NCBI GenBank assembly: GCA_031290095.1
Contig: JAITOF010000067.1
Coordinates: forward strand, 1-37,436
Source of the DNA: Candidatus Methanoplasma porotermitis
GTDB lineage: Archaea; Thermoplasmatota; Thermoplasmata; Methanomassiliicoccales; Methanomethylophilaceae
DNA: 37,436 nucleotides
Reading direction: 5' to 3'
Position 1 is the stretch's first letter; the number at the start of each line of letters is the position of its first letter. Under the pieces are notes generated by a model. The model was given only the letters and a program-made list of their open reading frames with translations, searched no databases and had not been told where the DNA came from. The position numbers and the translations under genes are program-made. Of this stretch, positions 1,051 to 36,658 are shown one piece after another.

Positions 1051-1833
1051 TCACTTGCTCTCGCGTTTCAAAGAGGCGGTTCCGCCCGCCGCGACGAGCT
1101 CCTCGATGGCCGCAGAGGCGATATCCTTCATAATCTCCTCGGCCTCCTTGTATTCGCTCGCCTTGATTAGAACGCGGTATTTGGGCGAGCCGACGCATGT
1201 GATCTCGGCGTTCGCGTCCCCTGCCGCCGCAATTCCTGCCAGCAAGGCGCTTTTGATGCGCTCTATGCCGTCAGGGGCATAGGAGTTCATCTCCAAAATG
1301 CCGTCGATCTGCACAAAAGGAGGCGTGACGTTCTCCGTCGCAACTTCGATGAACGTCTTGATCCATTCCCCTTTGAACTCCGAAGTGAACTCGTCAGGGT
1401 CCGCGACCACGGACTCGAACGCCCCGTAGAGCGTTTCATACTCTCCCAGCAGCTTGTCTCCGAACATGTCGTAAGCCGCGTCGATGTCGACTCCCATCCT
1501 CTCGGCGACGATCTCCATCAGCTTCTCGGCCTTCTTCTCGTTCTTCCACTGCTGGATCTTTTCTCTCTTCTGGTGTTCGTTGACGGACTTGAGGGAAAGG
1601 TCGATATGGCCTTTCGAGGCATCGACTCCCAGAACCTTGCAGACTATCTTCTGTCCTTCTCTTATGAAGTCTCTGATGTATTTTACCCAGCCTGTGGCCA
1701 CATCCCGGACGTGGACGAACCCTTCTTTGTCGCCATACTCGTCAAGGGTGACGAACGCCCCGAAGTTCTTGACGTTCGAGACCGTGCAGACGACAAGCTC
1801 GCCGTACTCGGGAAAGCCTTTGGCCCTCGACAT
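1051..1833 (-). CDS. eif2a: Translation initiation factor aIF2 subunit alpha
   Basis: S1-domain start MSRAKGFPEYGELVVCTVSNVKNFGAFVTLDEY; ORF track start at 1974 trimmed to ATG at 1833, which overlaps the rps27e stop (ATGA). Confidence 0.93.
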   Translation of the reverse strand: MSRAKGFPEYGELVVCTVSNVKNFGAFVTLDEYGDKEGFVHVRDVATGWVKYIRDFIREGQKIVCKVLGVDASKGHIDLSLKSVNEHQKREKIQQWKNEKKAEKLMEIVAERMGVDIDAAYDMFGDKLLGEYETLYGAFESVVADPDEFTSEFKGEWIKTFIEVATENVTPPFVQIDGILEMNSYAPDGIERIKSALLAGIAAAGDANAEITCVGSPKYRVLIKASEYKEAEEIMKDIASAAIEELVAAGGTASLKRESK

Positions 1834-2000
1834 CAGCCGACTACCTCGAGGACTTCGCCCCTTATCTCGCCGACGCCGCCTTTGGGCACGATGAGGATGG
1901 AGCCGCAGACGTTGCAGACGACATTCGTCGCCGCTTTTCTGAACACGATCTGTTCGTTGCTGCAGTCCGGACACTTTAACTTTATGAAGTCTTTGACCAT
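1833..2000 (-). CDS. rps27e: 30S ribosomal protein S27e
   Basis: MVKDFIKLKCPDCSNEQIVFRKAATNVVCNVCGSIL; zinc ribbon; start trimmed from ORF track. Confidence 0.93.
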   Translation of the reverse strand: MVKDFIKLKCPDCSNEQIVFRKAATNVVCNVCGSILIVPKGGVGEIRGEVLEVVG

Positions 2001-2005
2001 CTGAA

Positions 2006-2284
2006 TCACTCCGTAAGCTCGAACTTCTTCGCCCTTATGCACGTGGTGAGGTGTGCCTTCTTGCACTTCTCGCATCTGTATCTGATGTTGACCCTCTTCG
2101 TGGGCTTCTCTCTTCCTTCCGGCTTAGGCCTGGGAAAACCTCCGTAGCCTGCGGTTACTCTTCTGAATCTCCTCTGACCCCATTTGAGCTCGCTGGCTTT
2201 CTTCTTCTTGACCCTCTCCACATCGTGGGGAGTATGGGCGCTGCAGAAGGGGCAGTAGGTTTTGATGGTCCTGGGCATTTTCAT
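2006..2284 (-). CDS. rpl44e: 50S ribosomal protein L44e
   Basis: [40 protein letters not shown], typical L44e. Confidence 0.95.
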
Positions 2285-7063: not shown

Positions 7064-7450
7064 TCATGGCCTCCTTTCCAAGGCTTTCTTCATGAACCTC
7101 TCGTCGTCCACGACGAACCTTTCATGGGTCCCGAGCCCGACCTGTCCCGCCCCGTCGGAGACTTCGACGCTGAACACGACCCTCGTCCTGTCTATCTCGA
7201 CGACCTCCGTCCTGCAGACGACCTCTGCACCCTCGATGGACGGGGCCGAGTGGGATATGTCGAGTCGGACGCCCACGGTGCCCTTCCCGGAGTCCAAGTG
7301 TTGCATCAGGGACCTGCATGCGGTCTGCTCTACCAAGAGCGCCATCGCGGGAGTCGCGAACACGGGAAGCGTGCCGCTCCCGACGACAGATGCCAAGACG
7401 TCCTTCGTGACCGTGAGCCTTCCCTCTCCTTTGATGCCGACTGACAACAT
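7064..7450 (-). CDS. Hotdog-fold thioesterase, FlK-like family
   Basis: MLSVGIKGEGRLTVTKDVLASVVGSGTLPVFATPAMALLVEQTA matches fluoroacetyl-CoA thioesterase-like N-terminus; ORF trimmed to ATG at 7450. Confidence 0.82.
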   Translation of the reverse strand: MLSVGIKGEGRLTVTKDVLASVVGSGTLPVFATPAMALLVEQTACRSLMQHLDSGKGTVGVRLDISHSAPSIEGAEVVCRTEVVEIDRTRVVFSVEVSDGAGQVGLGTHERFVVDDERFMKKALERRP

Positions 7451-7862
7451 ATGGACGTAATCAAATCGGCCATATTTGTCACATGCGGGCGTGGCTTTGA
7501 TGAAATCATGTTTTACCTCAACTTCGACGCCGTTCCACGTTGTTCGAGGCGATTTTCCGGCACTGGGCCGAGCGTCGGCTGAAGCAACGGCGGAATTCGC
7601 CTTTCGACGCCTCGGAACAGGGCCGTCAGCATGATATGCGCCTGGCCGCATGGACGTCCGTGTTCTCTGTGTAGAACAGCATCCTCCAGGCGGCCGTATC
7701 ATAGGGGATGCACGGCATGACCTGCCAGGCGATGACGGTGTACGTGAACAACTACCTGGGCCGCACGAGACCCCCCCCCCCTCGACGATGCAGGGTGCCA
7801 CGTCCCACACTTCAGCGTGAGATTCATCCCCCTGCATGCCATGAGGTGGTCGGCCCGTCTAA

Positions 7863-8087
7863 TTCGGTTGGAATAAATACTCTGGTGTCATCGATTCAAA
7901 GGAAGTCGCAAAGGATATCACTGTAATCGGGCATAGGGGTGGCGGCGACATCGGACGTACGCCAAGAGTCTGGATCAACTTGATGATGCGATGCATGTTA
8001 TTGAGCAGGGACCCCGAAGGTAAATGGACGATAGAACATAAACTGGGCGTCTGCCCGCATGGTGTGAGGGAGGATGTGCGCACATGA
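7863..8087 (+). pseudogene. 5'-truncated coding remnant of unknown family
   Basis: Open frame without a start, FGWNKYSGVIDSKEVAKDITVIGHRGGGDIGRTPRVWINLMMRCMLLSRDPEGKWTIEHKLGVCPHGVREDVRT*, protein-like; stop overlaps next ATG (ATGA). Confidence 0.45.
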
Positions 8088-8290
8088 CTGACAAAGCGAT
8101 GGCTAAGATCCGTGAAGACGAGTTCGCAGAGGTCGTTTCAATAATCGACCGCGCCTGGGAAAACGCGTACAAGGCGGTCAACCACGAATTCATAACCCTG
8201 CATTGGAACATAGGAAGACTCGCAACGTGTTGCGAGTTTTTGAGTATCCGAAGCGTTTTTGCAAAACCCGCAATGCGTTGCAAGTTTTGA
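8084..8290 (+). pseudogene. 3'-truncated DUF1016 (YhcG-like) N-terminal fragment
   Basis: EFAEVVSIIDRAWENAYKAVNHEFITLHWNIGRLA resembles the DUF1016 N-terminus; similarity stops exactly at palindromic repeats. Confidence 0.6.
8218..8289. repeat. Pair of related palindromes: ACTCGCAAC-GT-GTTGCGAGT (8218-8237) and CAAAACCCGCAATGCGTTGCAAGTTTTG (8262-8289)
   Basis: Read directly. Confidence 0.75.
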
Positions 8291-8908
8291 GGGAGGGTGG
8301 GATTTCAAACGGGAGCCGCGGTCCGATTATGACGATTGCCAAGGCTTCTTAATGTCAGACGATTCCCCCAATTGTAAAGCTGGAACGGCACGCATGCGCA
8401 AGACCCGTGACAGGTCGTGCAGCCGAGCGATAAATCGGTTACGCCCATGAACGCCGCCGCATGAGACGGCGAGAGGCGCGTCGTCAGCGTGGGCCTTGCA
8501 AGTTTTTACATGCTATGCACGTAGGAGTCGAACACGGCCGCTTCGTTAGATGGAATGATTCCATTCTGTCGTCAGCCCCCCCCCCCCGTCCTAGGGGGCC
8601 TCCTGCCGCGTGGCGGACGGCCTCTGCCCGTTATGACAGGCGCATCAGGGCAGGCGATCACTCTCCGACGCTCCTTCTGCCCGTGACATGCTCATTTCTC
8701 CCTGATGTCCAACCAAATGTCAAACCGGCAAAGACGGCTCGACTATAGCTGAAAAATCGGTTGTGGGGCGCAGGCTCCATTCGAGACCCCTGCATGCCGT
8801 GAAGCTGTTCAAAAAAAAAACGGCAATTTGGTCGAAAACCATGATTTCACCGAGCCACAGGTGCATATGATTTAACTATCAACGTCGATTAGGGGACAGG
8901 GGAAATAG

Positions 8909-11900
8909 ATGGGATTAGAAGACGACCTCTTTACGGAATTGGCAGAGCTTAGGGAACAGATACGGAGCGACCGCACCCTGTCCAACGGCAGGATGCCCTT
9001 GGTGTGTCCGGATGACGCCCTTCGCGAGATGGCGCAACGCGTGCCCACGAAGGCGGAGGACTTCTCCGCCATAGCGGGCGTCGGTCAAAGGTTCGTCGAG
9101 CTTTACGGGGAGGAGTTCCTCGCCGTCACGAAGAAGTACGCCACGACCGCGGCCAAAGGGTCCAACATGGACAACGAACTGGCGCAGACCCTCCGCGAGC
9201 TCCAGAAGAAGCTGATAAACATAAGCAGGGGCAACCGCCTCCTGTTCCAGGCCAAGATATACAAGAAGAACGCGTTCGACCTGACGGCCATCCCTGGCTT
9301 GGACCTGATGGGCCTCCTTTTTGGAAAGAAGTCGTCCCTCAAGCTGTGCGATACCACGAAGAGTCCGGAAGACCTCCGTTTCTACAGGCATCTCAACGAG
9401 ATCATCAGGGAGGTCAACAGGGACCTCAGGGACAAGGGCCAGTACGACCTGTACATCGCATACCCCTTCGTGGAAGGCAGGCTTCCTGGCAACGAGGACT
9501 TCGATGTTCGCGCGCCGCTAGCCCTGTTCCCTGTGACGCTGGAGAAGGACGCGAAAAGCGTGGTGCTGAAATTGGACGACTCCAGAGATGCGGTCTACAA
9601 CAGCTCCTTGGTCCTCGCGTTCATAAAGTTCGGAGGCAAGAACCGCCCCCTTCCCAACAACGTCATCGACGACTACACCGCAGAGGACTTCGCCGTGAAC
9701 CTCGTCGCGTTCTACGAGGAGCAGGGATTCCCGCTGGAATGCTCCTACGGCCTCCCGGTGCCGTTCAGGGAATACAAGGCAGGAGAGTTCCCAAAGTACC
9801 TTCCCGGCGACCTTCACGTGGTGAACAACGTCATACTCGGGAAGTATCCAACGTACTCTAGCTACATACAGAAGGACTTCGACGAGCTGATCGCGGGAAG
9901 GGAGATCAACGCGATCCTCGAAGACCTCGTCAAGGACCTTAACAACGGAGACTTCTACTCCGAGGCGCCCGGCCCGCTGTCCCTCCCGGACCTGAGGAAG
10001 AAGGGGATGGAGGCGTCCGAGGTGGACATAACCTACATCAACTCCCTCAACAGCGCGCAGGAGAACGTCATCACGGCGGTCAACAAAAACGACGAGCTGG
10101 TCGTCCAAGGGCCCCCTGGGACAGGCAAGTCCCAGGTCATCACAGGGCTTATAACGTCTGCCGTGAACAGCGGGAAGACAGTGCTGATGGTGTCGGAGAA
10201 GAAGACGGCGCTGGACGTCGTCTACTCCAGGCTGGGAGGCCTTTCGAAATACTGCCTCATGATAGACGACGTCGGCAACAAGGAAAGCTTCTACCAGCAG
10301 CTGGGGCTCATGCTGGAGTCGGGGTCGCCGACCGCAGGCTCGGACTTGACCCCCATATCCGAGAGCATCGACCGCGACGTCTCCGTCCTTTCCAACATAG
10401 CGGACACGGTCTACCGCCCTGGCGAGTTCGGAATAGAGCCGTACAAGCTCTACTCCATGGACCGTTGGCTGGACCTCGAGGACAAGGTGCAGCTCGACAG
10501 ATACCAGCAGATCAAAGCATCCGTCACTTCAAGCGTGCTCTCGCTGAAGTACGACGAGGTCAAGGAGCTGCACCGCAAGTTCGGAGACAAGGTGCTTGTG
10601 AGCAACTTCGGCGAGTATTGCGACTGCGTCGACGCGGTGCCTTGGTTCCCCCTCGTGAAGCCCGACCTGTCGGAGTACAGCGTCGGAGAGATGAAGGCCA
10701 ACCTCGCGAGCATCGAGGCCGAGATGATAGAATGGCGGAGCAAGGGGTTCCTGTCGAAGCTGTTCTCCAAAGGCAAGGTCACGCGCGACGCCACGACGTT
10801 CCTCGACAAATATTTCAAATCATACAATGAACGCACGATCCAGACGGTGACGGACGATCCGGGCAGGATGGTCACGGACCTCGACAAGTACGAGACGTAC
10901 GCGTCGAAGGCAACCGTGTACGACAAGCTCACTGAGAACGAGAAGATATACGGCCGCGACGCCCTGAAGCTCGTCAAAGAGAACCGGTCCAAGTTCGAGG
11001 AGAGCAACGACCTGATATTCAGGTTCGTTCTGAACGACCACCTCCAGAGGTTCGACGCGACGAACAAGTCCGTCCTGCAGGAGATACAGGACTTCAACAG
11101 CATCGTGTCGGACATGGACCGCAAGATCCAAGAGAAGAAGAAGATCACCCGCGACAGGGTGGAGGAGATCCTACAGGAGAACCTCCGGTACATCACGGAG
11201 TCCAAGAGGCGCGGCGACATAGTCAGAATCATTGAGAACAAGAGGAAGTGGAGCCTCAACAAGTTCATAAACCGCTACAGCTACGAGCTGTTCAAAGGCG
11301 TGAAGATCTGGCTGCTGACCCCAGAGGTGGTGTCGGAGATAATGCCGCTCGAGATGGGGCTCTTCGACGTGCTGATATTCGACGAGGCGTCGCAGATGTA
11401 CGTCGAGAAAGGGATACCGTCGATATACCGCGCCAAGAAGGTCGTCGTGGCAGGGGACCACAAGCAGCTCCGCCCGTCCAGCCTGGGGTCCGGGCGCATG
11501 GAGTACGGGAGCGACGACGAGGACGACGAAGACTATGAGGACTCGGCCGTCCTCGAGGAGGAGAGCCTCCTCGACCTTGCGAGGTCGCGCTATGACAACA
11601 TCCTCCTGAACTTCCACTACCGCTCGAAGTACGAGGAGCTCATCGCATTCTCGAACTACGCCTTCTACGGCGGAAAGCTGTACGTGTCGCCGAACGTCCT
11701 GCAACCCGAGAGGCCGCCCATAGAGATGTACAACGTCGGGGGCCTCTGGAACAAGCGGTCTAACGACGCGGAGGCGCAAAAGGTCGTCGAGCTTCTGAAG
11801 GAGTTCTTCAAAACTCGGAAGGAGAACGAGACGGTGGGCATAATCACCTTCAACGTGTCCCAGAGGGACCTGATCAACGACATGATCGACGAGGAGTCGT

Positions 11901-12643
11901 TAAAAGACCTGGAGTTCGGGAAGGCCGTCAACAAGGAGATGAAGCGCTTCGACAACGGGGAGGACGTAGGGTTGTTCATAAAGAACATCGAGAGCGTCCA
12001 AGGGGACGAGCGCGACGTGATAGTGTTCTCCGTGGGATACGCGAAGAACAGCGAAGGGAAGCTGATGCAGAGGTTCGGATGGCTGAACAACAGAGGGGGC
12101 GAGAACCGCCTGAACGTGGCCATCAGCCGTGCCAAGAAGAAGATACACATCGTGTCCTCGTTCGATCCTGAAGAGCTGCAAGTGGAGAGCTCTAAGAACG
12201 ACGGCCCGAAGATACTGAAGAAGTACCTCCAATACGCGCAGGCGGTCAGCAACGGCCAGAAGGACCGGGCGGCAGGCATACTCCTGTCGTTCACGGACAA
12301 CAAGCAAAGGTCTGTCCAGCATATAACCGGGGACGCCCCGATCACCGAGAGAGTATACAACGCGCTGCTCCGCAAAGGGTACACCGTGGAGAAGAACGTC
12401 GGCATAGGCGGATACCGGATCGACCTGGCCATAAAGCAGGACGGGAAGTTCATCTTGGGGATAGAGTGCGACAGCAACATCTACGAGATGTCCGACTCCA
12501 CCAGAGAGAGGGACTACCACCGCCTGAAGTATCTGGAATCCAGAGGCTGGCATATTCACCGCGTATGGACTCCTGGCATGTGGAAGGACCCTCAGCGCGA
12601 AATCAACAACATAATCAAGGCGATCGAGCGCACCCAGGCCTGA
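8909..12643 (+). CDS. HRDC-DUF4011-SF1 (Upf1-like) helicase with C-terminal MTES_1575-type nuclease domain; putative defence or nucleic-acid processing protein
   Basis: 1244 aa; HRDC-like N-term; DUF4011-like LQKKLINISRGNRLLF; Walker A GPPGTGKS; DEASQ; GDHKQLRPSS; HYRS; SVQGDERDVIV; NVAISRAKKK; C-term GYRIDLAIKQDGKFILGIECD...RDYHRLKYLESRGWHIHRVWT. Confidence 0.88.
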   Translation: MGLEDDLFTELAELREQIRSDRTLSNGRMPLVCPDDALREMAQRVPTKAEDFSAIAGVGQRFVELYGEEFLAVTKKYATTAAKGSNMDNELAQTLRELQKKLINISRGNRLLFQAKIYKKNAFDLTAIPGLDLMGLLFGKKSSLKLCDTTKSPEDLRFYRHLNEIIREVNRDLRDKGQYDLYIAYPFVEGRLPGNEDFDVRAPLALFPVTLEKDAKSVVLKLDDSRDAVYNSSLVLAFIKFGGKNRPLPNNVIDDYTAEDFAVNLVAFYEEQGFPLECSYGLPVPFREYKAGEFPKYLPGDLHVVNNVILGKYPTYSSYIQKDFDELIAGREINAILEDLVKDLNNGDFYSEAPGPLSLPDLRKKGMEASEVDITYINSLNSAQENVITAVNKNDELVVQGPPGTGKSQVITGLITSAVNSGKTVLMVSEKKTALDVVYSRLGGLSKYCLMIDDVGNKESFYQQLGLMLESGSPTAGSDLTPISESIDRDVSVLSNIADTVYRPGEFGIEPYKLYSMDRWLDLEDKVQLDRYQQIKASVTSSVLSLKYDEVKELHRKFGDKVLVSNFGEYCDCVDAVPWFPLVKPDLSEYSVGEMKANLASIEAEMIEWRSKGFLSKLFSKGKVTRDATTFLDKYFKSYNERTIQTVTDDPGRMVTDLDKYETYASKATVYDKLTENEKIYGRDALKLVKENRSKFEESNDLIFRFVLNDHLQRFDATNKSVLQEIQDFNSIVSDMDRKIQEKKKITRDRVEEILQENLRYITESKRRGDIVRIIENKRKWSLNKFINRYSYELFKGVKIWLLTPEVVSEIMPLEMGLFDVLIFDEASQMYVEKGIPSIYRAKKVVVAGDHKQLRPSSLGSGRMEYGSDDEDDEDYEDSAVLEEESLLDLARSRYDNILLNFHYRSKYEELIAFSNYAFYGGKLYVSPNVLQPERPPIEMYNVGGLWNKRSNDAEAQKVVELLKEFFKTRKENETVGIITFNVSQRDLINDMIDEESLKDLEFGKAVNKEMKRFDNGEDVGLFIKNIESVQGDERDVIVFSVGYAKNSEGKLMQRFGWLNNRGGENRLNVAISRAKKKIHIVSSFDPEELQVESSKNDGPKILKKYLQYAQAVSNGQKDRAAGILLSFTDNKQRSVQHITGDAPITERVYNALLRKGYTVEKNVGIGGYRIDLAIKQDGKFILGIECDSNIYEMSDSTRERDYHRLKYLESRGWHIHRVWTPGMWKDPQREINNIIKAIERTQA

Positions 12644-13301
12644 GCCGTGCCTTGGTCACTCTGAGCGTGCAGCTGCTAGATCTAACGTCCCTGACTGACG
12701 AGACGATCTCCAGCGGGCGCGAATGCAACGGGGAGTCCAACGTGAGAGACTCGTACTCCCCGCCTTCCCCGATCACGCTTATGCCGTGCTTGGAGCGAAG
12801 GGCGCGCAGGCCGTTCCCGGCGTCCCGGCCTATGGGGCGGCCGAGCCACGACTCGTCCAGGCCTTCGGCGTAGCATCCGACAATAACGGCTTGTATTCCC
12901 GAGTCTATGATTTCTTCAAGGACTGCGTCTTGGTCCTTCCTCCACAGCGGGGCTATGAGCTTCAGGCCCAGGTCGCCGCATACCGCGTTCATCCTGTCCC
13001 ACTGGTAGTCTGACCAGACTGCGCCTGCGACGACGCCTTCCACGTCAAGCCCCGACAGGGCGTCCCGGAGGCAGGCCATGTCGCCCTCCTCCGTGCCGGA
13101 GCTGGAGGCTCTTACGAGTTCGATCCCCATGGACTCGGCCATGAGCGGCACGACGTCGAGGTTCGGGGTGTGGAATATCCACGATTCCTCATCGTCGGGG
13201 ACTATGTTGACGAGATACGGCACGTCATGCCCCATCTGCACGGCCAAATACATCGCCAACGTCGAGTCCTTCCCTCCGGAGTACAGTGCGGCGAGACGCA
13301 T
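12615..13301 (-). CDS. dph6: Diphthine--ammonia ligase (DPH6-type ATP pyrophosphatase)
   Basis: MRLAALYSGGKDSTLAMYLA PP-loop; GEGGEYESLTLDSP motif; convergent overlap with helicase 3' end. Confidence 0.88.
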   Translation of the reverse strand: MRLAALYSGGKDSTLAMYLAVQMGHDVPYLVNIVPDDEESWIFHTPNLDVVPLMAESMGIELVRASSSGTEEGDMACLRDALSGLDVEGVVAGAVWSDYQWDRMNAVCGDLGLKLIAPLWRKDQDAVLEEIIDSGIQAVIVGCYAEGLDESWLGRPIGRDAGNGLRALRSKHGISVIGEGGEYESLTLDSPLHSRPLEIVSSVRDVRSSSCTLRVTKARLRPGCARSP

Positions 13302-13604
13302 GCTTCGCTATCCCTAGCGGACGATATAATGGTTGACACGACTCGCCCATGCGTAAGCTCTGGGCATGGCGACGACCCATACGTTAACGGATGCGGTGGA
13401 ATAGACTATGCTTTCCGCGACACGGGGCATCGCAGTCCAAGATGGAATAAAGTGGAGCCAAGCCTAACAAGTGAAACTCGCCCTCTTGCCTCCAAGTGTC
13501 ACATATGATGCTGATCTTTAAAGCTTTGTCGAACGACACAAAACACACCGCGGTTTGGTCCGAACCCCATATATCAATGTTATGATGGTCTTTGGAGGGA
13601 GACA

Positions 13605-13790
13605 ATGGCAACAGACTCGTTCACTGACATGCTTGTGATAGACATGCCCGAGAAGGCGCGCCAGCTTGCGTCGGCGTTCGCCATCACTGAAAAAAGAGGC
13701 CACTCAAAACCCGACCCTGCAATCCTTAAGAGGCTGGCAGAGGACGAGGAATACTTCAGAAGTCTGAAGCATGAGCCTAAAGATAAGTAA
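13605..13790 (+). CDS. Small antitoxin-like protein
   Basis: 61 aa ORF with GGAGGG RBS; overlaps the start of the downstream GNAT-like frame by 20 nt. Confidence 0.45.
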   Translation: MATDSFTDMLVIDMPEKARQLASAFAITEKRGHSKPDPAILKRLAEDEEYFRSLKHEPKDK

Positions 13791-14300
13791 GCTCCGTAGC
13801 ATCTCCGAAGTCCAAATCTGCGAAGACGTGGATGTTCTCCTCTCTACGTTTAAATGCGCCAAGAATCTGGACGACGAAAAATTCCTTTAGAGGACGGCAA
13901 TGCGCCACGAGTCTAAGGACACATCTCGCACATACATATGCAGTATACCGAGAACTCAAAAATAATCTGCTACTTCACGCTTGCCATAAAATGCATTTCT
14001 GTGGGCGTTCTGAAGGACATTGACCCAAAAACATTCGAGTCCATGAACGCAGACGGAGGTGTGGCGCAGGCATACCTAATAGGACAACTGGCAAGGGCCG
14101 ACGACTCTCCAAAGGGATTGGAAGGGATTATGTTCAACATTGCGATGGCAATATTGTCTAACACGAACGAAACCGTCGGATGTCACACCGTGCGTGTGGA
14201 TTGTGCGGACGAGCTGATAGGACACTGCACTAGAAACGGATTCGTCAACATAGGAAAGAGCCCCAAAAACAACTTGAATCGCATGGTTGCTGTGATTTAA
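13771..14300 (+). pseudogene. GNAT acetyltransferase toxin-like gene, interrupted by in-frame TAG (13888-13890) and a frameshift (about 13937)
   Basis: MSLKISKLRSISEVQICEDVDVLLSTFKCAKNLDDEKFL[TAG]RTAMRHESKDTSRTYIC // YTENSKIICYFTLAIKCISV...AYLIGQLARADDSPKGLEGIMFNIAMAI...GFVNIGKS, typical of TA-type GNAT toxins. Confidence 0.6.
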
Positions 14301-14367: not shown

Positions 14368-15087
14368 ATGGTTCCCCCTGAGTCGCCGAACCTCAAGAAA
14401 ATCGTGGCCGAAGCGGCCGTGAACCATTATGTCAAAGACGGCATGGCCGTCGGTCTTGGAACGGGATCTACCGCCGAATACGCCGTTAGAAGGGTCGGCG
14501 AGCTGGTCGCTTCCGGGTACGAGCTGACCTGCGTCGCGACTTCGCTGAGGACCGAGAAGCTGGCAGTGGAGGCTGGCGTGAAGGTGTCCGACCTCTCCGA
14601 CGTAGACCATTTGGACGTCACGATCGACGGAGCCGACGAGGTGGACCCGGACCTGCAGCTGATAAAGGGGCTGGGAGGGGCGTTGCTAAGGGAGAAGATC
14701 GTCGCCGCGGCCACTGTTAGGGAGATAATCATCGTTGACGAGTCCAAACTGGTCCAAAAACTCGGCACTAAGTCTCCTCTGCCGGTCGAAGTGATCCGGT
14801 TCGGGCACGCTAGGACGAAGTACGCCGTCGAGAGGCAGGGTTGCAAAGCGACCATCAGGGCCACAGACGGCAAGCCGTTCGTCACCGACGGCGGGAACTA
14901 CGTCTACGACTGCGCGTTCGAGTCCATAGAGAACCCTTTCTTTCTGGAATCCCGGCTGGACGTCATCCCCGGGGTGGTCGAGAACGGGCTGTTCCTGAAC
15001 ACAGCGTATGCGGTGCTGTCGGCAGACAGAGAAGGCATCGTCACCCGGATAGAGCGTGGCGGAGTCCGAGAAATCCTGAAGCCGTGA
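14368..15087 (+). CDS. rpiA: Ribose-5-phosphate isomerase A
   Basis: GLGTGSTAEYAV, DGADEVDPDLQLIKGLGGALLREKIVA. Confidence 0.95.
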   Translation: MVPPESPNLKKIVAEAAVNHYVKDGMAVGLGTGSTAEYAVRRVGELVASGYELTCVATSLRTEKLAVEAGVKVSDLSDVDHLDVTIDGADEVDPDLQLIKGLGGALLREKIVAAATVREIIIVDESKLVQKLGTKSPLPVEVIRFGHARTKYAVERQGCKATIRATDGKPFVTDGGNYVYDCAFESIENPFFLESRLDVIPGVVENGLFLNTAYAVLSADREGIVTRIERGGVREILKP

Positions 15088-15131: not shown

Positions 15132-16199
15132 ATGGACCCTGCAGAGCGAATGGCGCTGGTCGTCAGGAACACGGCCGAGGTGGTGGACGAGAAGGAGCTC
15201 TTCGAGCTTCTAAGGACCAAAGACCGTCCGAGGGCATACATCGGATTCGAGCCGTCCGGGCTCGTCCATCTGGGATGGGCGCTGGTAGCCAACAAGATCA
15301 GGGACCTCTGCGACGCAGGGTTCGAGGTCATAGTGTTCTGGGCGGACTGGCATGCTTACATCAACGACAAGCTGGGCGGCGACTTGGAGAACATCCGCAC
15401 ATGCGCCAGATACATGGAAGACTGCTTCAAGGCGCTTGGAGTGCCGGAAGACAAGGCCAGGTTCGTGTACGCCAGCGAGATACTGGACGACATAGAGTAC
15501 TGGGGCAAGGTCATCAAAGTGGCCAAGGTCACGTCGCTTCAGAGGGTGAAGAGGGCGATGACCGTCCTGGGAAGGTCTGAGGACGAGGCGGAGGTGGACT
15601 CGTCCAAGCTCTTGTACCCGCTTTTGCAGGCCACGGACATATTCTGCATGGACGTGGACCTGGCGTACGCAGGCATGGACCAGAGGCGGGCGCACATGCT
15701 CGCCCGCGATGCCGCCGAGAAGCTGAAGTGGAAGAAGCCGATTGCTCTCCACACGCCGCTCATACCCGGGTTGAAGGGCGGGGACAGGATGAACCCTGCG
15801 GCGTTCAAGATGTCCAAGAGCGACCCAGGCGGGAGCATCAACATACACGATGACGACGAGGCCGTCCGTTCCAAGATGAAGAAGGCGTTCTGTCCTCCAG
15901 AAAAGGAGAAGGAGGAAGAGAACCCCGTCCTGATGTTGTGCAAGTATGTCATATTCCCCCGCATGGGGCGGATGGACATATCGAGGCCCGAGAAGTTTGG
16001 AGGGGACGTCTCGTTCGAGAGCTATGAGGAGCTTGTCGAGGCGTACTTCGGCGGGAAGCTCTTCCCTCTGGACCTGAAGAACGGTGCCTCTGAGTCGCTG
16101 ATAGCGATGCTCGTCCCCGTAAGGGAGTATTTCGACCGTCATCCCGAAAACTATGCGGCGATGAGGCAAGTGTTCGACGGGATGGAGAAGCTGCGCTGA
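15132..16199 (+). CDS. tyrS: Tyrosyl-tRNA synthetase
   Basis: YIGFEPSGLVHLGWA, KMSKSDPGGSI, archaeal-type 355 aa. Confidence 0.95.
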   Translation: MDPAERMALVVRNTAEVVDEKELFELLRTKDRPRAYIGFEPSGLVHLGWALVANKIRDLCDAGFEVIVFWADWHAYINDKLGGDLENIRTCARYMEDCFKALGVPEDKARFVYASEILDDIEYWGKVIKVAKVTSLQRVKRAMTVLGRSEDEAEVDSSKLLYPLLQATDIFCMDVDLAYAGMDQRRAHMLARDAAEKLKWKKPIALHTPLIPGLKGGDRMNPAAFKMSKSDPGGSINIHDDDEAVRSKMKKAFCPPEKEKEEENPVLMLCKYVIFPRMGRMDISRPEKFGGDVSFESYEELVEAYFGGKLFPLDLKNGASESLIAMLVPVREYFDRHPENYAAMRQVFDGMEKLR

Positions 16200-29193: not shown

Positions 29194-30054
29194 TTAGATC
29201 ACAATTTCTTCCTTCCTGCCGGAGATCTTCCTCTCCAGGTATTGGATGGCCAGGTTCACTGCCACCCCTAGTAGCGCAACGGTCACAATCCCCACCCACA
29301 TCTTGGGCATCTGGAAGGTGGCCTGCGCCTGCAGTATCATATATCCCAGTCCGGAGCTGGCTCCTATCATCTCGGCGCCGATCAGCATGAAGAACGCGAA
29401 CACCGCGCCCATCCTGACTCCTGTGAACACCGACGGGAGGGCGCCGCGCAACAGCACTTTGTAGAATATCTGGATCTTGCTCAGCCCAAGGGACCGAGAC
29501 ATTTTGACAAGCGTAGGGTCTACGTTCCTGATCCCGGTGACGGTGCTGAACAGGATCGGCCATTGGCACACCCAGAATATGATGCTGATCTTGGAAAGCT
29601 CCCCGATGCCCAGCAGGGTGATGACCACTGGGAACAGGGTGAAGGGGTTGGCCTGGCTGAACACCTGAAGCAGGGGGTTGACGGCCGTCTCTATGGTCTT
29701 GAACCACCCTCCCAGCAAAAAGCCCAAGGGCAACGCCACGGCAAGGGCGATGCCGAAGCCGATGGCCACCCTGCGCAAGCTGACGACGACGTTGTCGAGC
29801 AGCACGCCGTTCAATATCAGCTCTATGAACTTGTCGAAAATGACGCTTGGCGTCGGTATGATGACGGGGTTGACGAGTCCCAAGCCGGGAGCAAGCTCCC
29901 AGAGTATAAGGAACACGATGATGGCTCCGAAGATGTGTACGAACTTCAGGCCGACCTTGGCCAGGAGCCCGATGCCTTTCTTGGCAAGCGGCCCGGCCCT
30001 GAACGGGCCCGCCTTCTTGCCTTCCGTGTCTGTAGCGGCTCCCATGTCAACCAC
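29194..30054 (-). CDS. ABC transporter permease (SsuC/TauC-like)
   Basis: TM-rich, GIALAVALPLGFLLG; LPSVFTGVRMGAVFAFFMLIGAEMIGASSGLGYMI EAA-like loop. Confidence 0.88.
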   Translation of the reverse strand: MVDMGAATDTEGKKAGPFRAGPLAKKGIGLLAKVGLKFVHIFGAIIVFLILWELAPGLGLVNPVIIPTPSVIFDKFIELILNGVLLDNVVVSLRRVAIGFGIALAVALPLGFLLGGWFKTIETAVNPLLQVFSQANPFTLFPVVITLLGIGELSKISIIFWVCQWPILFSTVTGIRNVDPTLVKMSRSLGLSKIQIFYKVLLRGALPSVFTGVRMGAVFAFFMLIGAEMIGASSGLGYMILQAQATFQMPKMWVGIVTVALLGVAVNLAIQYLERKISGRKEEIVI

Positions 30055-30943
30055 TCGCCCCAGCCTTGGCGGCCTCTATGTTCAAAAGCTCCCATAGCCT
30101 GTGCCGGGTGCTGATGTAAGCCTCCGACACCTTGAAGTCGCCGGACAGCCGATCGCCTCTGGACAGGGGGACCGGGACGATCTCCTGTATGACTCCAGGG
30201 CGTGCGGTCATGACCGACACCCGGTCGGCTAGGAACACCGCCTCGTCGATGCTGTGCGTGATGAACAGCACAGTCTTCCCAGTCTCTTGGGCTATTCGCA
30301 ACAGGTCGCGTTGCAGGGTCTCCCGGGTCAAGGCGTCCACAGCGGCGAACGGCTCGTCCATGAGCAGCACCTCGGGGCCGACGGCCAAGGCGCGGGCGAT
30401 GGCCACCCTCTGTTTCATCCCTCCCGACAATTCGAACGGATAGTGCCCGTGGAAGTCGCTGAGACCTACCAGGTCCAGATACTTGGCGGCTGTCTCCTTC
30501 CGCTTGGCAGAGTTCTTCTCCAGGTTCTCCAGGGCGAACGTCACGTTGCCCAAGGCAGTCTTCCAAGGGAGAAGGGCGTACTGCTGGAACACCGTCGCCC
30601 GGTCCGTACCCGGGCCGGTCACGGGCGCCCCGTCGATCAGGATGGATCCGCCTGTGGCCTTGGTCAGGCCCGCCACCAGGTCCAGGAACGTGGATTTGCC
30701 GCATCCGCTGGGTCCGAGGATCACATGGAACTCGCCACGGGAGATGGAGAGGTTCAGCCCCCCCAGGGCCTCCGTGGACGGAGAGTTGTCTTTCTTCCTT
30801 CCGTTCCCTCGTGCGGAGAACGTCTTCCTGACGTCGATCGCCTCGATCTTGACGTCATCCCTCCCATACTGCAAACCCAGATTGCGAGCCGGGGCGGCCT
30901 CGTCATGTCTTTTCGCCTCGCCGGCAGAACCGTTACTGCTCAT
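30047..30943 (-). CDS. ABC transporter ATP-binding protein (SsuB/TauB-like)
   Basis: GPSGCGKST, LSGGMKQRVAIARAL, VLLMDEPFAAVDALTRE. Confidence 0.92.
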   Translation of the reverse strand: MSSNGSAGEAKRHDEAAPARNLGLQYGRDDVKIEAIDVRKTFSARGNGRKKDNSPSTEALGGLNLSISRGEFHVILGPSGCGKSTFLDLVAGLTKATGGSILIDGAPVTGPGTDRATVFQQYALLPWKTALGNVTFALENLEKNSAKRKETAAKYLDLVGLSDFHGHYPFELSGGMKQRVAIARALAVGPEVLLMDEPFAAVDALTRETLQRDLLRIAQETGKTVLFITHSIDEAVFLADRVSVMTARPGVIQEIVPVPLSRGDRLSGDFKVSEAYISTRHRLWELLNIEAAKAGASG

Positions 30944-35054: not shown

Positions 35055-35879
35055 ATGAGTTCCCTCAAAAGCTCCCTGGGATACGATCGCGACAACAAGG
35101 TCCACAGGATGCTGTGGATGCTGTTCGTCGTCGTCGTGTCCCTGACGGCGCTGGTGCTCATATGGTGGTTCATATCCATCGTAATCGACAGGCCTATGGT
35201 GCCCACGCCTGCGGAGACATGGGGTGCGCTGACCGAGCTCGCCCGCGACGGCGACCCGATGACCGGACGCACCCTGTGGACCTATATAAGGTCCAGTTTC
35301 GGAACCTTTATGAAAGGTTTTGCGCTGGCCTTTGTTGTGGCATTCCCTCTGGGGCTGTTGCTCGGGTACTCCGGCGTGATCCGCGAGTTCGCCACACCCG
35401 CGATAGAGGTCCTGAGGCCCATAGCCCCTGTGGCATGGGCCCCGGTCTTCGTGGTGCTGTTCGGATATCAGATAGGGCCGATGGTGGTCGTGTTCGTGGG
35501 AATATTCTTCCCCCTGCTCACGAGCGTCATCTTTGGCGTCAGGAAGATCGACCCCAATTGGATAGATGCGGCGAAGACGCTCGGAGCGTCGCAGCTGCAG
35601 ATATTCGCCAAGGTCGTTATCCCTGCGTCCATACCATATCTGATGAACGGCGTCAAGGTAGGGCTCGGGATAGGATGGATGTGCATAGTCTCTGCGGAGC
35701 TGTACGCGTCGCCGATAGGCGGCGTCGGGTTCTACATAAGCAACCAGGCTTTCGTAGGGTACTGGCCGGGCGTGTTCGCAGGCATCTTCATAGTGGGGGT
35801 CCTTGGGATAATAACCGTCGGCACGGCAGACTACCTGCACAGAACGCTATCCAAGAGAATGGGAGTTGAAGTCTCATGA
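35055..35879 (+). CDS. ABC transporter permease (SsuC/TauC-like)
   Basis: FVVAFPLGLLLGYSGVIREFATPAIEVLRPIAPVAWAPVFVVLFG; ASIPYLMNGVKVGLGIGWMCIVSAEL. Confidence 0.92.
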   Translation: MSSLKSSLGYDRDNKVHRMLWMLFVVVVSLTALVLIWWFISIVIDRPMVPTPAETWGALTELARDGDPMTGRTLWTYIRSSFGTFMKGFALAFVVAFPLGLLLGYSGVIREFATPAIEVLRPIAPVAWAPVFVVLFGYQIGPMVVVFVGIFFPLLTSVIFGVRKIDPNWIDAAKTLGASQLQIFAKVVIPASIPYLMNGVKVGLGIGWMCIVSAELYASPIGGVGFYISNQAFVGYWPGVFAGIFIVGVLGIITVGTADYLHRTLSKRMGVEVS

Positions 35880-36658
35880 CAGGAGACACATCGGACGAAA
35901 CGCAGATACGCATAGAGGGGCTTGGCAAGACGTACCGTCGCGAACAGAAGGAGACCGTGGTGATCGAGGACCTTAACCTTGAGATAAGGAAAGGAGAGCT
36001 CATCACCTTCGTCGGGCCTTCAGGCTGCGGCAAGACGACTCTCCTGAAGCTGATTGCCGGTCTGATTCCTCCGACGTACGGGACGGTCATGATAGACGGT
36101 CGCACGTGCACGGAGCCGGGAGCGGACCGCGGCATGGTGTTCCAGGACTTCGCTCTGTTCCCTTGGAGGTCCGTGAGGAAGAACGTGGAGTTCGGCCTCG
36201 AGGTCGCCGGCGTCCCAAAGGCGGAGCGCAGGGAGCGTGCGGACAAGTACATCAAGCTGGTCGGCCTCGACAAGTTCGCAGACTCGAGAGTCTACGAGCT
36301 GTCGGGAGGCATGAAGCAGAGGGTGGGCATCGCAAGGGCGCTAGTGGTGAAGCCTGATGTAATACTGATGGACGAGCCGTTCGGCGCGCTGGACGCGCAG
36401 ACCCGCAACATCATGCAAGCCCAGCTTATAGACATCCTGAGCTCCACAGACCAGACGGTGATATTCATCACCCACTCTGTGGACGAGGCGGTGTACCTCT
36501 CCGATAGAATCGTGGTGCAGACGAAACGCCCCACGACGATCAAGGAGATCGTGGACGTCCCTTGGCCAAGGCCCAGGGACCGCTCGACCCCCGAGTTCGT
36601 CGCGCTTAGGAAGAGGATACTCGAGGAGCTGGAGAAAGAGAACGTCATGGAAGACTGA
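35876..36658 (+). CDS. ABC transporter ATP-binding protein (SsuB/TauB-like)
   Basis: GPSGCGKTTLLKLIAGL, LSGGMKQRVGIARAL, VILMDEPFGALDAQTR. Confidence 0.94.
   Translation: MTGDTSDETQIRIEGLGKTYRREQKETVVIEDLNLEIRKGELITFVGPSGCGKTTLLKLIAGLIPPTYGTVMIDGRTCTEPGADRGMVFQDFALFPWRSVRKNVEFGLEVAGVPKAERRERADKYIKLVGLDKFADSRVYELSGGMKQRVGIARALVVKPDVILMDEPFGALDAQTRNIMQAQLIDILSSTDQTVIFITHSVDEAVYLSDRIVVQTKRPTTIKEIVDVPWPRPRDRSTPEFVALRKRILEELEKENVMED

Follow-up and report, generated by a model that had tools for sequence, protein, structure and literature searches.

A clade-specific core gene of Methanomethylophilaceae encodes an HRDC-fused helicase-nuclease related to anti-phage enzymes

Large helicase-nucleases that carry a DUF4011 domain are usually scored as mobile defence genes. 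The named families nearest to the protein described here, ProA, Hhe and PDC-S37, are anti-phage families. ProA unites DUF4011, a split SF1 helicase and an MTES_1575-type nuclease in one chain, and its profile spans 1903 positions. Hhe, found on Klebsiella plasmids, is likewise a DUF4011-helicase-nuclease and is modelled over about 1800-1911 positions; PDC-S37 is a PADLOC candidate only, with a model of 1550 positions. A large DUF4011 core gene is present in every examined isolate of P. aeruginosa, where it flanks the defence hotspot cDHS1 (PMC10250203). The YprA helicase family has been described with both defence and DNA-repair or housekeeping branches (PMC12458937), and the MTES_1575 nuclease as a Vsr-family DNase (PMC3710099). 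Searches of the open-licence PMC literature returned no report of the family-wide fixation, the HRDC fusion or the relationship to ProA presented below.

We analysed a 37,436-nucleotide stretch of contig JAITOF010000067.1 from Candidatus Methanoplasma porotermitis (the window). One of its genes encodes a 1244-residue HRDC-DUF4011-SF1 helicase-MTES_1575 protein; gene and protein are both called T here. The original prediction was of an accessory single-gene defence system built from these parts, and the parts themselves were all recovered at the following positions:

8909-12643 (+): whole T gene (1244 aa), ATG start, no internal stops
8921-9127 (+): HRDC domain, aa 5-73 (Pfam PF00570, E 5.7e-13, 49.1 bits; cut-off 23.8 bits)
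9185-9613 (+): segment resembling DUF4011, aa 93-235 (Pfam hit over aa 157-234, E 6.4e-10, over the cut-off)
10046-10240 (+): RecA1 of the Upf1-like SF1B helicase, motifs I/Ia (AAA_11, aa 380-444, E 9.8e-18)
10109-10132 (+): Walker A, GPPGTGKS, aa 401-408, invariant
10346-11299 (+): long helical insertion (arm) between motifs Ia and II, roughly aa 480-797 (predicted structure)
11381-11392 (+): Walker B, DEAS, aa 825-828, invariant
11564-12160 (+): RecA2 (AAA_12, aa 886-1084) with the later SF1 motifs (Pfam E 1.1e-21)
12347-12625 (+): MTES_1575/Vsr-like nuclease, aa 1147-1239 (PF18741, E 3.1e-27, 94.9 bits; cut-off 38.2)
12422-12424, 12464-12466 and 12470-12472 (+): candidate catalytic nuclease residues D1172, E1186 and D1188 (invariant in 23 orthologues)

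The five domain matches (HRDC, DUF4011, AAA_11, AAA_12 and MTES_1575) each exceeded the curated Pfam cut-offs. The other SF1 motifs were located at aa 849-854 (GDHKQL), aa 1030-1036 (motif V) and aa 1065-1074 (motif VI), and these motifs, together with D1172, E1186 and D1188, were invariant or nearly so in 23 diverse orthologues, in agreement with the complete Upf1-like set that had been proposed. Full-length orthologues are 55-92% identical and under purifying selection, indicating that the open reading frame did not arise by chance. T has the composition of the broad family (DUF4011, split SF1 helicase and C-terminal MTES_1575 nuclease, all above the gathering cut-offs) with intact Walker A, Walker B and nuclease D..ExD residues, from which departures were seen solely in a divergent subclade of genus g4. 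It was the only HRDC protein detected in the source genome.

The N-terminal 250 residues were modelled with AlphaFold2, and a second model was made for residues 76-1244 (mean pLDDT 76). The N-terminal model is a helical bundle; among solved structures it is closest to the HRDC domain of E. coli RecQ (1wud; TM 0.86 over the target, rmsd 1.3 Å), with Rrp6 matching at a lower rank; profile and fold both identify the domain as HRDC. The second model contains an SF1B core resembling Senataxin, Ighmbp2, Upf1 and Dna2, the long helical arm, and a C-terminal alpha/beta nuclease fold. The top Foldseek matches were the RNA helicases Senataxin, Aquarius, Ighmbp2 and Upf1, and Dna2 was also among the matches. 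Alignments to Dna2 and the Upf1-like SF1B structures (PDB 5ean, 4b3f, 2gk7) span part of the helicase only. Dna2, like T, has a nuclease in the same chain as its SF1B core; the Dna2 nuclease is N-terminal and belongs to a different PD-(D/E)xK family. Assignment of T to the RecQ helicases was rejected, as its helicase is SF1 and its match to TIGR01389 is confined to the HRDC part (aa 3-76).

The best NCBIfam match of T was ProA (NF058533), at 555 bits against a cut-off of 1500 bits; Hhe (NF042953) scored 392 bits against 2000 bits. Since both scores fall far below the equivalog cut-offs, T was not filed under either name. The matches to ProA fall within roughly model positions 600-1710, and T, at 1244 residues, alone has the N-terminal HRDC domain. 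True ProA exists in the same archaeal family as a separate, patchy gene, whereas T occupies a fixed core locus. Hhe is about 30% identical to T but is plasmid-borne and has no HRDC match. The best PADLOC match was PDC-S37 at 540 bits, a model that the true ProA genes of the family match far better (about 1024 bits). Compared by description, the P. aeruginosa gene shares with T its large size and core status; it differs in marking a hotspot, and no HRDC is mentioned for it.

A profile of the HRDC and DUF4011 half of the protein detected the fusion in 80 of 102 Methanomethylophilaceae species. It was present in every sampled species (79/79) of genera g1, g3, g4, g5, g10, g11, g12 and g13, including assemblies that are only about 60% complete, in one of four g2 species, and in none from g6, g7, g8, g9 or g14; two of the negatives were taken to be G024 and G033 by a process of elimination. 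Near-complete genomes without T include G017, G021, G023 and G029. Among 296 genomes sampled across the phylum, no fusion was seen outside the family, and HRDC and DUF4011 were matched there as separate entities. The fusion was absent from the plasmid and phage collections searched, and neither search returned a close relative of T at more than 80% coverage. On a concatenated-gene tree, the carriers of T fall mainly into one crown group; the exceptions are absence from part of g2, relocation with duplication in g5, and the weak placement of g3.

The nearest relatives outside the family, in genera of f2 (L188, L189, L190), have no HRDC domain. A MarC-like protein and a protein of about 260 residues flank them in all three genera, and these relatives may be core genes too.

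The surroundings of T are occupied by housekeeping genes, of which the following mark its site:

1051-2284 (-): two core genes of the block, aIF2-alpha at 1051-1974 and the ribosomal protein gene L44e at 2006-2284 (synteny)
7064-7837 (-): FlK-like thioesterase, divergent neighbour on the other flank of T (synteny)
12615-13301 (-): dph6-like diphthamide synthase, convergent neighbour marking the fixed site (PF01902, E 4e-63; synteny)
14368-15087 (+): rpiA, conserved neighbour (synteny)
15132-16199 (+): class I Trp/Tyr-type aminoacyl-tRNA synthetase, conserved neighbour (synteny)

Genes for PAC2, MFS transporter, DHH, ABC-2 and prefoldin proteins and for an RNase PH subunit are also found here. 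The dph6-rpiA-L44e-aIF2-alpha arrangement is conserved across the order, with or without T, and T adjoins the dph6 site in g1, g3, g4, g10-g13 and one g2 species. Inspection of the neighbourhoods, which had been suggested as a check for association with defence genes, revealed housekeeping neighbours at a fixed site and no defence gene beside T.

Several variations of the locus were observed. A copper-type P-ATPase gene is interposed between T and dph6 in g4, g11, g12 and g13, and not in g1 or g10 (loci with an ATPase-type gene at this position: L040, L042, L044, L049, L050, L052). In genus g5 (L053-L057, L059, L062), T no longer lies next to dph6; two diverged copies occur in some genomes (G020, G032) and share 42-48% identity with the protein of the window. 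Two further open reading frames of the window, 30047-30943 and 35876-36658, match a neighbourhood gene of many relatives at about 26-36% identity.

The claim that T lies beside decayed genes was true in part. Upstream, a fragment at 8084-8290 resembles DUF1016_N (E 7e-4, below the family cut-off); it sits in an insertion of about 1 kb that is absent from the nearest relative, G002. Downstream, 13.6-14.3 kb holds unassigned pieces: the stretches 13560-13810 and 13938-14300 contain a sequence with three matches on the far side of dph6 in G002 (72-78% identity) and small open reading frames that no Pfam family matches, possibly a decayed accessory pair. The plus-strand frames at 12.7-13.3 kb, in contrast, are shadows of dph6 on the minus strand. 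A creatininase remnant was looked for downstream of T and not found. The AT-rich leader amounts to 58% A+T over the 100 bases directly upstream of the start codon, a modest excess over the approximately 42% A+T of the window.

Descent and constraint were compared with those of the neighbouring genes. In 24 genomes, the tree of T shared 18 of 21 splits with the concatenated-neighbour tree, and the distances were correlated (Mantel r 0.84, p 1e-4). Within-genus divergence of T (0.20 per site) equalled that of the adjacent synthetase (0.20) and was lower than that of rpiA (0.27), dph6 (0.30), DHH (0.31) and PAC2 (0.35). Omega was 0.04-0.14 for the whole gene and 0.03-0.08 for the nuclease, where computable. 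An accessory defence cassette is expected to be patchy and mobile; the fixed pattern found here therefore disfavours the accessory status assigned by the original prediction, and the outcome that the prediction itself had named as refuting, universal conservation of homologues in housekeeping contexts, is largely what was seen, as judged from the 79/79 species, the dph6/rpiA/L44e/aIF2-alpha site and the neighbour-like tree. Collectively, presence throughout eight genera, the fixed site, the neighbour-like tree and the synthetase-like constraint indicate that T is a clade-specific core gene of Methanomethylophilaceae, vertically inherited, and not an accessory island gene. The best explanation is that T was placed beside dph6 in an ancestor of the crown genera and has been inherited vertically since.

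Nine species (seven of g4, one of g12 and that of g3) carry divergent forms of T, about 42% identical, at the same site wherever contigs permit a check. The genes around T in the g4 subclade still cluster with those of g4 (dph6 73%, aIF2-alpha 78%) while T is at 41%. An AU test, in which long branches were involved, weakly rejected derivation of this T from the g4 form (p 0.028), so both replacement in place and fast divergence are possible origins. A catalytic residue of the nuclease is substituted in two of the divergent copies (G378, D1172G; G379, E1186Q), and the copy in G385 has an internal stop, unless this is an assembly error. The g3 copy (L058, G018; 7657-11766, minus strand) continues in frame after the nuclease into a C-terminal peroxiredoxin (AhpC/TSA, E 7e-23), reflecting either a gene fusion or an assembly effect.

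A search of the whole family with the ProA model detected true or near-full ProA-type genes in 9/9 genomes with divergent T and in 16/22 lacking T, together 25 of 31, as against 8 of 71 genomes whose T is canonical; counts in fragmented assemblies are approximate, and the Fisher p of 1e-11 for this association ignores phylogeny. Several genomes carry ProA together with canonical T. Members of the g4 subclade have ProA neighbourhoods in common, but these vary from lineage to lineage, a pattern that repeated acquisition, or a mobile defence gene, would be expected to give. These sequence comparisons hint that ProA and T may overlap in function, T relaxing or being lost where ProA is present. The association is suggestive only, because divergent T has about three origins (the g4 subclade, G364 and G018) and the absences cluster in a small number of genera; shared ancestry could by itself account for it.

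From the observed architecture, intact residues, site, descent and selection, we infer with about an even chance of being right that T would be a fixed, constitutive DNA-surveillance enzyme of the innate-immunity type, related to the ProA/Hhe helicase-nucleases. The HRDC domain, as in RecQ, would dock T on DNA that is single-stranded or branched, for example viral and plasmid replication structures or unprotected ends. Next, the SF1B motor would translocate, with the helical arm and the DUF4011 segment serving as a substrate channel or sensor, and the Vsr-like nuclease at the C-terminus would cut the strand or introduce a nick. Being chromosomally fixed, T would provide constitutive surveillance against foreign or damaged DNA, unlike a mobile cassette. 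The inverse association with ProA favours an overlap with defence. Counted against surveillance are the scores far below the ProA and Hhe cut-offs and the stable, syntenic and slow-evolving pattern, which defence genes seldom show and which a repair enzyme would explain equally well. More tentatively, at somewhat worse than even chances, T could be a ProA/Hhe-type immune enzyme that gained a RecQ-type HRDC domain and was domesticated as a core guardian, dispensable once a mobile ProA arrives.

The main rival, which we consider rather unlikely, is that T is a housekeeping helicase-nuclease for DNA repair or replication restart, acting in the manner of Dna2 on flaps, resected ends or stalled forks, with defence no longer involved. 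Its presence, site, tree and constraint are those of a core gene, its structural matches include Dna2 as well as Upf1, Ighmbp2 and Senataxin, and no second HRDC protein was found in the genome. The classical resection partners are missing: RecQ was above the cut-off in just 1 of 101 order members, and NurA was absent from the order bar one weak match. However, NurA and RecQ are also missing in many lineages that have no T, and the four near-complete family genomes named above show that T is dispensable. Moreover, the closest named relatives of T are anti-phage, and its decayed or divergent copies coincide with ProA-type genes. The narrower proposal that T substitutes for NurA/HerA or RecQ was rejected, given that NurA and RecQ are missing order-wide even where T is absent.

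That T is an ordinary accessory single-gene defence system, merely common in Methanomethylophilaceae, is improbable and, as regards accessory status, largely refuted. The defence part of the original prediction retains the resemblance to ProA, Hhe and PDC-S37; small decayed insertions do flank T in the window, and the divergent g4-subclade copies at an unchanged site may reflect in-place replacement (AU p 0.028), a habit of defence genes. The accessory part conflicts with complete presence in eight genera, a vertical tree, a fixed site under synthetase-like constraint and the lack of neighbouring defence genes at that site. Action on RNA, T being an RNA or R-loop helicase of the Upf1/Senataxin kind that carries a nuclease, is very improbable: the leading Foldseek matches are RNA helicases, HRDC domains also occur in RNase D/Rrp6, and exosome-type, aIF2-alpha and L44e genes lie nearby, but RecQ is the best HRDC match, MTES_1575 is described as a DNase (PMC3710099), and in a core block neighbourhood does not predict function.

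T, fixed across most of a family of host-associated methanogens, provides a natural case for asking whether immune nucleases turn into core genome-surveillance enzymes, and the occurrence of ProA alongside absent or decaying T makes functional equivalence directly testable. Annotation pipelines may mislabel this core gene as a defence protein. If the domestication reading is true, an archaeal innate-immunity gene would be behaving like a housekeeping gene in a family of gut methanogens. The data suggest that an immune-type enzyme is now part of the core genome of these organisms.
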